From assembly GCA_947175195.1 (NCBI GenBank), contig CAMWLQ010000004.1, forward strand, positions 1 to 64,000: 64,000 nt of DNA, in the 5' to 3' direction. The position numbers and the translations under genes are program-made. Positions within the stretch are counted from its first letter, which is position 1, and each line of letters opens with the position of its first letter. The DNA comes from an uncultured Clostridia bacterium (GTDB taxonomy: Bacteria; Bacillota; Clostridia; Christensenellales; Pumilibacteraceae). Below are positions 60,455 to 64,000 of the stretch, one piece after another. The notes under the pieces were generated by a model. That model did no database searches and had not been told where the DNA came from. It worked only from the letters and a program-made list of their open reading frames with translations.

Positions 60455-60697
60455 ATGAAATTAAGTACGGCAGTTGCATTGCGAATAAGCAATATCTTAC
60501 GGGAAAGGAATATGTCGCAGTACCGTTTGGAAAAGAATATTGCTATGCCGCACAACACAATGAAAACTCTTATGAGCGAAAGGAACAACGGCGTCAATCT
60601 CAAAACCGTAATGCAAATAATTCGCGGCTTGGATATGACTACGGCACAATTTTTTGATGACCCGCTGTTTGAAAATCCCGATTTGGAAATAGAATAA
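60455..60697 (+). CDS. XRE-family HTH regulator
   Basis: LRISNILRERNMSQYRLEKNIAMPHNTMKTLMSERNNGVNLKTVMQIIRGLDMTTAQFFDDPLF. Confidence 0.88.
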   Translation: MKLSTAVALRISNILRERNMSQYRLEKNIAMPHNTMKTLMSERNNGVNLKTVMQIIRGLDMTTAQFFDDPLFENPDLEIE

Positions 60698-60758: not shown

Positions 60759-62333
60759 TTAACCGTTTTGCAGGCTGATGACCTTGATGAACTCGGCGAA
60801 CAGCGGATGCGTGTTGAGCAATCTCGAACGGTATTCGGGATGGAAAATCGTGCCGATAAAGAATTTGTTGGTGGGTATCTCGAACGCCTCGGGAACGCCC
60901 GTCGGCGAGTGTGCCGAAAATACCAAGCCGTTCCTTAAGAAAAGCTGTTCGTAAGTTCCCGCAATGTCAAACCTATGGCGGTGACGCTCGGCAGCCATTT
61001 GAGTGCCGTAAATCTTGCTCAAATACGTGCCCGGGGTTATCATTGTGGGGAATGCGCCTTTTTTGAGCATTGGCGGCTCTACGCTTGCCACCACGCTGTA
61101 CGGCGTGTCAGGCGTAAATTCCTGCGAGTCCGCACCCGTCATCGCGCACACGTTGCGTGCAAACTCTATTATGCCCGCCTGCGCGCCCAGTCCTATCATA
61201 AGGCAAGGAATGTCGTTTTCGCGCGCGTACTTTGCCGCAGCTATCTTGCCGTCGAACCCGCGCACGCCAAACCCGGGCGCTATTACTATTCCGTTATACC
61301 CGTCCAGCACGCTCGGATTGTTTTGCACGTCCGCGCTGTAAACAAGCGTAATATCCACAGCCTCGCCACGCAGCAGTCCCGCCGTGGTAATCGCGTCGGT
61401 TATAGACTGGTACGCCGTGGCTTTTTCCACGTACTTGCCCACGACCGCCACCTTGATGCGGTTTTGCGCGTTGCTCACTTCCTGCGCCTTGTTGCACATA
61501 TCCGTCCATGCGCCGAGCTGCGGATCACGCTCTTCCAGTTTGAGCTTTCTTAGCGCGACGCCCTCAAAGCCCTGTTCGTGCAGCTTGAGCGGCACTTGAT
61601 AAATATTATCGGTGGTTACGCTCTCTATTATGCCGCTCTTGTCCACGTTGCAAAACTGTGAAATCTTCTTTTTTGCGCCGTCGTCAAGCGGCAAATCACT
61701 GCGGCACACTATTATATCGGGCTGAATACCTATGTTTTGCAGCTCCTTGACCGAGTTTTGCGTCGGCTTGGTTTTGTGTTCGCCGCTCATCTCGATAATA
61801 GGCACGTACGTAATATGTATATACACCGCGTTGCCCTTGCCCAGCTCGCCGCGGCATTGGCGTATAGCCTCCAGGTACGGGTGGTTTTCTATATCGCCTA
61901 CCACACCGCCTATCTCGCACACCACCACGTCAGTTTCGGGACGGTTGAGCGTGTACAGCGTGCGCTTAATCTCGTCGGTAATGTGCGGCACGACCTGCAC
62001 GGACTCGCCGTCATACGCGCCCTCGCGCTCCCTGCGTATTACTGCGGAATAAATTTTGCCGCTGGTGATGTTGCTGTTTTCGGTAAGGTTTTGATCCAAA
62101 AACCGCTCGTAGTGACCGAGCACCAAATCGCCCTCGCCGCCGTCGTCGGTGACAAACACTTCGCCGTGCTGATACGGACTCAAGTACAGCGAATCCACGT
62201 TAAAGTACGGGTCGAACTTGATAATATCGACCGAATAGCCCTGCGCCTTGATTAGCATTGCCATGCTTGCCGCCGTTATTCCCTTGCCTAAGCCCGACAC
62301 CACACCGCCGGTAACAAAAATATATTTAGACAT
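60759..62333 (-). CDS. CTP synthase paralog with degenerate glutaminase site (Cys to Gly)
   Basis: [21 protein letters not shown]..., EIGGVVGDIEN; GATase region reads LMIGLGAQ instead of FGICLGMQ (GGA codon where the nucleophile Cys is expected); FHPEYRSR retained. Confidence 0.93.
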   Translation of the reverse strand: MSKYIFVTGGVVSGLGKGITAASMAMLIKAQGYSVDIIKFDPYFNVDSLYLSPYQHGEVFVTDDGGEGDLVLGHYERFLDQNLTENSNITSGKIYSAVIRREREGAYDGESVQVVPHITDEIKRTLYTLNRPETDVVVCEIGGVVGDIENHPYLEAIRQCRGELGKGNAVYIHITYVPIIEMSGEHKTKPTQNSVKELQNIGIQPDIIVCRSDLPLDDGAKKKISQFCNVDKSGIIESVTTDNIYQVPLKLHEQGFEGVALRKLKLEERDPQLGAWTDMCNKAQEVSNAQNRIKVAVVGKYVEKATAYQSITDAITTAGLLRGEAVDITLVYSADVQNNPSVLDGYNGIVIAPGFGVRGFDGKIAAAKYARENDIPCLMIGLGAQAGIIEFARNVCAMTGADSQEFTPDTPYSVVASVEPPMLKKGAFPTMITPGTYLSKIYGTQMAAERHRHRFDIAGTYEQLFLRNGLVFSAHSPTGVPEAFEIPTNKFFIGTIFHPEYRSRLLNTHPLFAEFIKVISLQNG

Positions 62334-62359: not shown

Positions 62360-64000
62360 CTACTTGTTTGACGAAGATTGTTTGTTGATATTATAATTGA
62401 TCTCTTTAAGCTTTTTCGCGTTGTATTCCACAACGTCCAGCAAATGCTCGAATATCTTTTGCGCCGTGGCGCGTTCGGGGATAGAGCGCGAAACGTTGCT
62501 GTCCGTGTTGTCCGAGTGCGCAAAAAAGTTGCGCTGCGCAAAGTATTCCGAATATAACGCCACCAGCACCTCGGGGTAAATTACGCTCTTCATGCGCTGG
62601 GTATAGCCGCTTTTTAGAATGTACTTGCCGCTGTCGTCCTTGTCGAACGCCTGACCTATCATCTTGACCTTGATGCCCTCGGCGCACTGAAGGTCGAATA
62701 CAAACCGCTCCAGCCCCCTAAACGCAGGCACCAGCAACACCGAGTAATCGGACAAATGCAGTGAGCTTTGCGAAAAGTCATGTATGCCGTAAGAAAAGTC
62801 AATGCGCGATTGCTCGGACAAATAATCGTATGCCGTGGGCAGGCGCTTTTTCAGCTTGTTTTGTACGTCCGAAACCTTTTTGCCACCGCCCGATTCCTCT
62901 ACATAGTTTTCGAGCGCCGACGAATAGTCGCTGTAATTGCTGACCTGCGACATGACCTCGCCGAACAAATTGCTGCGCTTGCCTTGCAGCTGGAGCGTCA
63001 TGCGCTTTGTCGCGTACCTGAGCAGCACCCTTTGACCTGCGGCGTCCGATACGGTGTAATTCTTTACCTCTTGCACCGTGCCGGCAAACTCCGTTTCGCC
63101 TGACGCCACAGTCTTGCCGTATGACTTTAATCTATTAAGCGCCCCGTCCAGCGCGTCAAACGGAAAGTTCTTTACCGAATATCCGTTTTTGTATTCGGGC
63201 GTGGGCACTATGTCCGCCGTTATTTCCTCTTTTTTTGCCTTGGGCGGTCTACCGCGCTTACGCTTTTCGGTCGGTTGCTGCGACGCCTGCTGGGTAGGCT
63301 GCTGTGCAACGGCTTTGGGCGGCCTGCCACGCTTGCGCTTTTCCGTCGGCGCTTGCTCGGCTTGCTGCGGTTGTTGCTGCGGCCTTGTATTGATTTTAAA
63401 CAACGTGCCGTCGTCCTTACCCGAATCCTCCGAGCCGAATGATATTCGAGGCGAATCCGTGCGCGAACGATGACCTATCGATATAGCCAAGCCGCCCGAA
63501 TCGGAACGCTTGTCCATGCGCGGGCTTTGCGAATACTCATACGTGCGCACCGATTGCGGCGCTGTTTGAACGCGCGTGCCGTTAAACGGCGCATTTGCGT
63601 TTTGCTGCGCGCCGTTGAACTGCGGGCCTTGCTGCTCCAACCGCGTTTCGCCGTATGACGGCAACGTGCGTTTTTTTATTATTTGCGGCGGATATATAAT
63701 GCCCCCGCCGTTGACGTCCGACTGCTCCCGAACAGGCGCTTTTTTCTTTATAGTTTGCGGCGGGTAAATTTCATCGGTGGAAATTTCCGCGCCCTTGGAC
63801 GAAACAAACAGCGTGGGTACGGGCGCGAACTCAGTTCTACGCCGTATGCTGTCGGGCGAAACAAACAGCTTTGCGCGCGTAGAGCCGTCGTTTGACTGCT
63901 TTACGATAACCTTTTGCGTCGGCTGAGTGCCCTGTGCCGGCACGGAGGAACGCTTGATCGACTTACCCGTAGGCGCGTACAAGTCCAGCAATCCTTGCGC
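62360..64000 (-). CDS. RnlA-like HEPN ribonuclease with AT-hook motifs, partial (5' end outside window)
   Basis: C-terminal VPAFRGLERFVFD and RNFFAHSD (HEPN Rx4H), upstream TLQLQGKRSNLFGEV; two TEKRKRGRPPKA AT-hooks; disordered N-terminus; frame stays open to the window end. Confidence 0.75.
   Translation of the reverse strand, partial: AQGLLDLYAPTGKSIKRSSVPAQGTQPTQKVIVKQSNDGSTRAKLFVSPDSIRRRTEFAPVPTLFVSSKGAEISTDEIYPPQTIKKKAPVREQSDVNGGGIIYPPQIIKKRTLPSYGETRLEQQGPQFNGAQQNANAPFNGTRVQTAPQSVRTYEYSQSPRMDKRSDSGGLAISIGHRSRTDSPRISFGSEDSGKDDGTLFKINTRPQQQPQQAEQAPTEKRKRGRPPKAVAQQPTQQASQQPTEKRKRGRPPKAKKEEITADIVPTPEYKNGYSVKNFPFDALDGALNRLKSYGKTVASGETEFAGTVQEVKNYTVSDAAGQRVLLRYATKRMTLQLQGKRSNLFGEVMSQVSNYSDYSSALENYVEESGGGKKVSDVQNKLKKRLPTAYDYLSEQSRIDFSYGIHDFSQSSLHLSDYSVLLVPAFRGLERFVFDLQCAEGIKVKMIGQAFDKDDSGKYILKSGYTQRMKSVIYPEVLVALYSEYFAQRNFFAHSDNTDSNVSRSIPERATAQKIFEHLLDVVEYNAKKLKEINYNINKQSSSNK

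Follow-up and report, generated by a model that had tools for sequence, protein, structure and literature searches.

The toxins of toxin-antitoxin systems are thought to need an antitoxin. The characterised members of the RnlA group, RnlA and LsoA, are anti-phage RNases (PMC3710099; PMC5308261). RnlA of E. coli is activated by RNase HI, which binds its NRD, and rnlA without rnlB is deleterious in this host (PMC5308261), so an active enzyme without the antitoxin needs some other restraint. The TBP-like domain of RNase HIII is cited as binding RNA:DNA hybrids, and hybrid binding has been proposed for RnlA relatives as well (PMC3710099). Fluorescently labelled RnlA localises to polar foci in E. 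coli (PMC8406201). An RnlA relative with an intact active site that is a single-copy core gene without RnlB, such as the one described here, lets a housekeeping role of the toxin fold, and its restraint, be tested. The version of the protein with AT-hooks suggests control through DNA location.

The rnlA-like gene, which comes from a gut bacterium, lies at the end of the window, the whole stretch of 64,000 nucleotides that was analysed, where an open reading frame on the minus strand (62360..64000; residues 74-619 of 619, plus stop) runs off the last base. The earlier note had called for the missing 5' end, and the contig, which continues for another 219 bases to the 5' end of the gene, supplied it: the gene spans C4:62360-64219 on the minus strand and encodes 619 aa from an ATG start. 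Four regions follow one another in the protein: an N-terminal TBP-like domain (residues 1-85), whose end (residues 74-85) lies at 63965..64000 while residues 1-73 fall outside the window; a disordered basic linker (residues 86-340; 63201..63964); a second TBP-like domain equivalent to the NRD of RnlA (residues 345-448; 62876..63187); and an RnlA-type HEPN/DBD domain (residues 450-610; 62390..62872), all on the minus strand. A TBP-like segment had been noted ahead of the HEPN domain, and it is present there; that account was incomplete, since a second one forms the N-terminus, mostly outside the window.

Assignment to the RnlA-type HEPN proteins, first proposed from the letters alone, was borne out by several methods. 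Pfam places PF19034 (RnlA-toxin_DBD, a HEPN domain) at residues 450-568 (1e-8, 36 bits versus a cut-off of 27). The single protein matched LsoA (5hy3) at 4.6e-5 in phmmer, and a profile of 44 orthologs did so at 4.9e-13 across NRD and HEPN domain. Profile alignment to classic RnlA with hhalign gave 98% for the HEPN domain and 95% (E 3e-8) for the second TBP-like domain, which the LsoA alignment also covers. The two TBP-like domains of the protein resemble each other (hhalign 86.5%, E 4.6e-6); against the NTD of four classic RnlAs the N-terminal domain scored 0.4%, below significance, and matched its own NRD instead. An AF2 model of an 83%-identical ortholog had pLDDT of about 88 in the N-terminal domain and mostly 25-35 in the linker, and a model of the C-terminal half of the window protein had a mean of 69. 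In the structural comparison with RnlA that the earlier note had advised, Foldseek searches with these models of modest confidence returned ten PDB matches each below E 0.001, all of them RnlA or LsoA (7aex, 5hy3, 4i8o, 6y2p-6y2s), at probability 1.00 and with TM-scores of about 0.5 at best. NCBIfam and PADLOC gave no match for the protein.

Two motifs that had been read as a HEPN active site are present and align with LsoA: FRGLERF (residues 500-506; 62702..62722, minus strand), which holds R501 and E504 of the R-x2-E pattern, and RNFFAHSD (residues 563-570; 62510..62533, minus strand), which holds R563 and H568 of the R-x4-H pattern. All 59 orthologs share E504, R563 and H568; R501 is kept in 57/59 and N564 in 56/59. 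The 44-ortholog profile sets RGLE over RAIE and RNFYAH over RHGLFH of LsoA, and R501, E504, R563 and H568 align with the catalytic positions of RnlA. The RnlA mutants R255A and R318A are among the Foldseek matches, and the spacing of R255 and R318 (63) is near that of R501 and R563 (62); E258 and H323 complete the RnlA active site. Non-catalytic RNA binding has been proposed for some HEPN domains (PMC3710099), and the protein could in principle bind nucleic acid through a retained but inert HEPN fold. This reading is highly improbable, as inactive HEPN domains lose Rx4-6H whereas the active-site E, R and H are found here in all 59 orthologs across many genera.

Of the 74 genomes in the GTDB family, 65 have PF19034, always in a single copy; it is present in 42 of 43 high-quality genomes and in 14 of 18 genera. 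It is present in 27/297 genomes of a sample of the order, 22 of them in the family, which leaves 5/275 outside, and in 9/392 genomes of a sample of the class (8/391 when the genome of the window is set aside). The isolate Anaerocaecibacter muris (L041; Pumilibacteraceae in NCBI taxonomy) also has the gene, which is therefore not a binning artefact. A profile search of a sample of the phylum recovered the rnlA-like gene alone, at limited sensitivity, as the same profile missed the classic RnlA of G387.

The surroundings of the gene are conserved as well. In the window, pyrG (CTP synthase; 60759..62333, minus strand) lies 26 bp downstream on the same strand and is probably an operon partner. Long flanks were compared for 21 loci in 14 genera. 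Of these loci, 20 have the gene of a large secreted surface protein upstream, and 14 have pyrG downstream, with a gap of <=80 bp or an overlap in 13 of the 14; farther upstream, many of the 21 also have coaX, an ECF-type membrane gene and homoserine dehydrogenase. The surface protein and the rnlA-like gene are about 3 kb apart in genus g7. A hairpin separates the surface-protein gene from the rnlA-like gene, which may thus head a separate transcript together with pyrG. The surface protein just past the window end (L002:4424-7807, minus strand) has 1127 aa, a weak Ig-like match and a C-terminal membrane helix with an RFRK tail. Beyond pyrG, on the opposite strand, 60455-60697 encodes an 80-aa Cro/C1-type HTH protein (HTH_26).

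HEPN domains of the family are monophyletic (99/99) on a long stem, in a tree whose deep branches are long and uncertain. Close orthologs give dN/dS values of about 0.09-0.13 for the three folded domains and 0.19-0.24 for the linker, and judged from these ratios the gene is under purifying selection. An origin from phage or plasmid was set aside: no relative was found in phages or viral contigs, and the single distant plasmid RnlA carries RnlB. Also rejected was the idea that the rnlA-like protein replaces a missing RNase H, since 19/19 family genomes tested have both RNase HI and RNase HII.

RnlB (PF15933) was found in 0/74 family genomes. As a control, it was detected in 8 of 10 PF19034-carrying genomes outside the family; in two of these, G074 and G205, RnlB adjoins an RnlA of 345-346 aa, and a Bacillus plasmid has the same pair. 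Nor did any small conserved neighbour emerge as a candidate antitoxin within about 7 genes (ORFs from 40 aa, blastp 1e-6). A mobile toxin-antitoxin module with an overlooked RnlB is rejected by the contrast between family and outside control, and this single-copy core gene, with its conserved locus, does not show the patchy distribution of a mobile module. A diverged, distant or unrelated antitoxin is possible. Context lends no support to the description of the RNase as toxin-like: the gene is core throughout the family, has housekeeping neighbours at a conserved locus and lacks RnlB. The protein might nonetheless still serve in defence or dormancy, as a core chromosomal RnlA-type RNase that is freed on phage infection and otherwise restrained by some inhibitor, whether unrelated to RnlB, unlinked or acting in cis. 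The anti-phage activity of RnlA and LsoA (PMC3710099; PMC5308261) and the intact catalytic site fit such a role, and the added N-terminal domain and linker could be inhibitory; presence at one locus in 42/43 high-quality genomes rather than in patches, slow evolution under strong purifying selection, and the lack of both RnlB (0/74) and a small conserved neighbour make it unlikely, though it deserves to be taken seriously.

The linker is strongly basic, with a net charge of +20 and a pI of 10.3 over residues 82-345. It varies from 26 to 331 aa across the family and is net positive in 59/59 orthologs (median pI 10). PTEKRKRGRPPKA occurs twice within it, and these two copies are the AT-hooks: AT-hook 1 at residues 294-304 (63308..63340, minus strand) and AT-hook 2 at residues 319-330 (63230..63265, minus strand), each with the core RKRGRPPK and each kept in the genus. 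The earlier note had placed two AT-hooks in a disordered region, and they hold up. The Pfam family AT_hook (PF02178) matches in two stretches at 19.6 bits versus a cut-off of 17.4; only 7 of 20000 linker shuffles contain at least two [KR]GRP; and [KR]GRP recurs, one or two per protein, in 18/18 sequences of the window's genus type, among them the MAG HAN098, so the motifs are not a product of chance. AT-hook matches were confined to the rnlA-like protein in the four genus genomes scanned. The 41 sequences from other genera have [KR]GRP in 0/41 and a hook-less linker rich in K, P, A and Q. The reported fusion of AT-hooks to an RNase is thus real but belongs to one genus. As the linker is basic in every ortholog and the hooks occur in one genus only, these sequence patterns indicate that the trait of the family is a basic tether, with AT-hooks a refinement at genus level.

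AT-hooks had been described as mostly eukaryotic, a view to be qualified by bacterial examples such as WhiB7 (PMC11354804). Our literature search, which reached few subscription papers, found no report of an AT-hook joined to a HEPN RNase, and the titles and abstract openings of the AT-hook and toxin-antitoxin literature named no such fusion. Short motifs conserved in the genus, VPAQG, RAK-FV-PD and STDEIYPPQ, occur in the linker at 63700-63964, with ISFG further along, and the G006 linker has TDEI-PPD copies in tandem; these are possible partner-binding motifs. That the DEIYPP motif is common to other proteins was rejected, as within G000 and G001 it is present in the rnlA-like gene alone. 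The ortholog in HAN098 (L043:6001-7479) keeps AT-hook and HEPN domain and is missing most of the NRD; this absence may be genuine or an error of assembly.

An alternative is a housekeeping RNase whose basic linker and motifs resembling AT-hooks contact RNA or ribosomes instead of DNA. It would fit the basic, hook-less linkers of 41/41 sequences from other genera, which suit general polyanion binding. The conserved islands of the window's genus are, however, canonical RKRGRPPK AT-hooks above the Pfam cut-off, the best-known minor-groove motif, and RNA or ribosome binding is in our judgement distinctly unlikely.

The explanation we favour, though with a confidence that is evenly balanced, is a domesticated, antitoxin-less endoRNase of RnlA type that would be tethered through its linker to nucleic acid, which in this genus would be nucleoid DNA; its activity is predicted from the conserved site and its DNA binding from the motifs. 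The data suggest that a toxin fold has been recruited for routine work in the cell. An RnlA-type HEPN endoribonuclease would have become a vertically inherited single-copy core gene of the family, its RnlB antitoxin having been lost or never present. The HEPN domain would dimerise and cleave RNA. The TBP-like domains of the protein would either read nucleic acid, possibly RNA:DNA hybrids in the manner of RNase HIII, or contact partners like RNase HI; by analogy with E. coli RnlA, an RNase HI partnership is possible. Through its linker the enzyme would be tethered to polyanions; where AT-hooks are present, as in this genus, they would anchor it in the minor groove of AT-rich DNA of the nucleoid. 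The enzyme would then cleave RNA close to the DNA, whether nascent or in hybrids, and location and partners would limit activity in place of an antitoxin. A more specific proposal, which we put forward tentatively as one possibility, is that a toxin-family RNase was domesticated into a housekeeping enzyme bound to the nucleoid. It would trim or degrade nascent transcripts or R-loops where they meet the template DNA, and DNA location would take the place of the antitoxin. Several points weigh on the favoured explanation. The harm done by rnlA without rnlB in E. coli means that the enzyme, if active, needs a restraint other than RnlB, and no such restraint was found; the structure models have modest confidence and TM-scores of about 0.5. 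The GC content of the window is about 49%, which does not make AT-rich targeting obvious; genera without AT-hooks mean that hook-based DNA tethering cannot be the core function of the family; and, given the polar foci of E. coli RnlA, localisation to the nucleoid would depart from the parent protein.

With RnlA/RNase LS (RnlAB of E. coli K-12; 4i8o, 6y2p, 7aex) and LsoA (5hy3) the rnlA-like protein shares the NRD and HEPN domain, and the R-x2-E and R-x4-H patterns at the same positions. It differs in having a gene without RnlB that is core and syntenic, whereas RnlA is sporadic; in an extra basic linker, with AT-hooks in one genus; and in an N-terminal domain that is similar to the protein's NRD, with no detectable likeness to the NTD of RnlA. 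Classic rnlA-rnlB modules (G074 and G205 of the Clostridia; Bacillus plasmid NZ_CP152438.1) have PF19034 in common with it, and several an NRD-like region, but encode an RnlA of about 345-365 aa with no basic linker and RnlB directly downstream. In genus g348, HEPN-only ORFs of 161-165 aa with PF19034 (L114, L115, L116) were observed. Genus g346, sampled in G716 and four other genomes (loci L103, L117, L118, L119, L120 in all), has an RnlA-type HEPN domain in 5/5 genomes and, like the family protein, an N-terminal segment and a lysine-rich linker, AAKKE-like in the four full-length copies. RnlB was not detected in G716, the one g346 genome searched. This protein belongs to a different family of the class and has no AT-hooks, and its grouping with the present family is unsupported (84/38); it is a second linker-type RnlA, possibly of independent origin. 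With the bacterial AT-hook proteins, represented by the transcription factor WhiB7, the rnlA-like protein shares the minor-groove motif built on an RGRP core.
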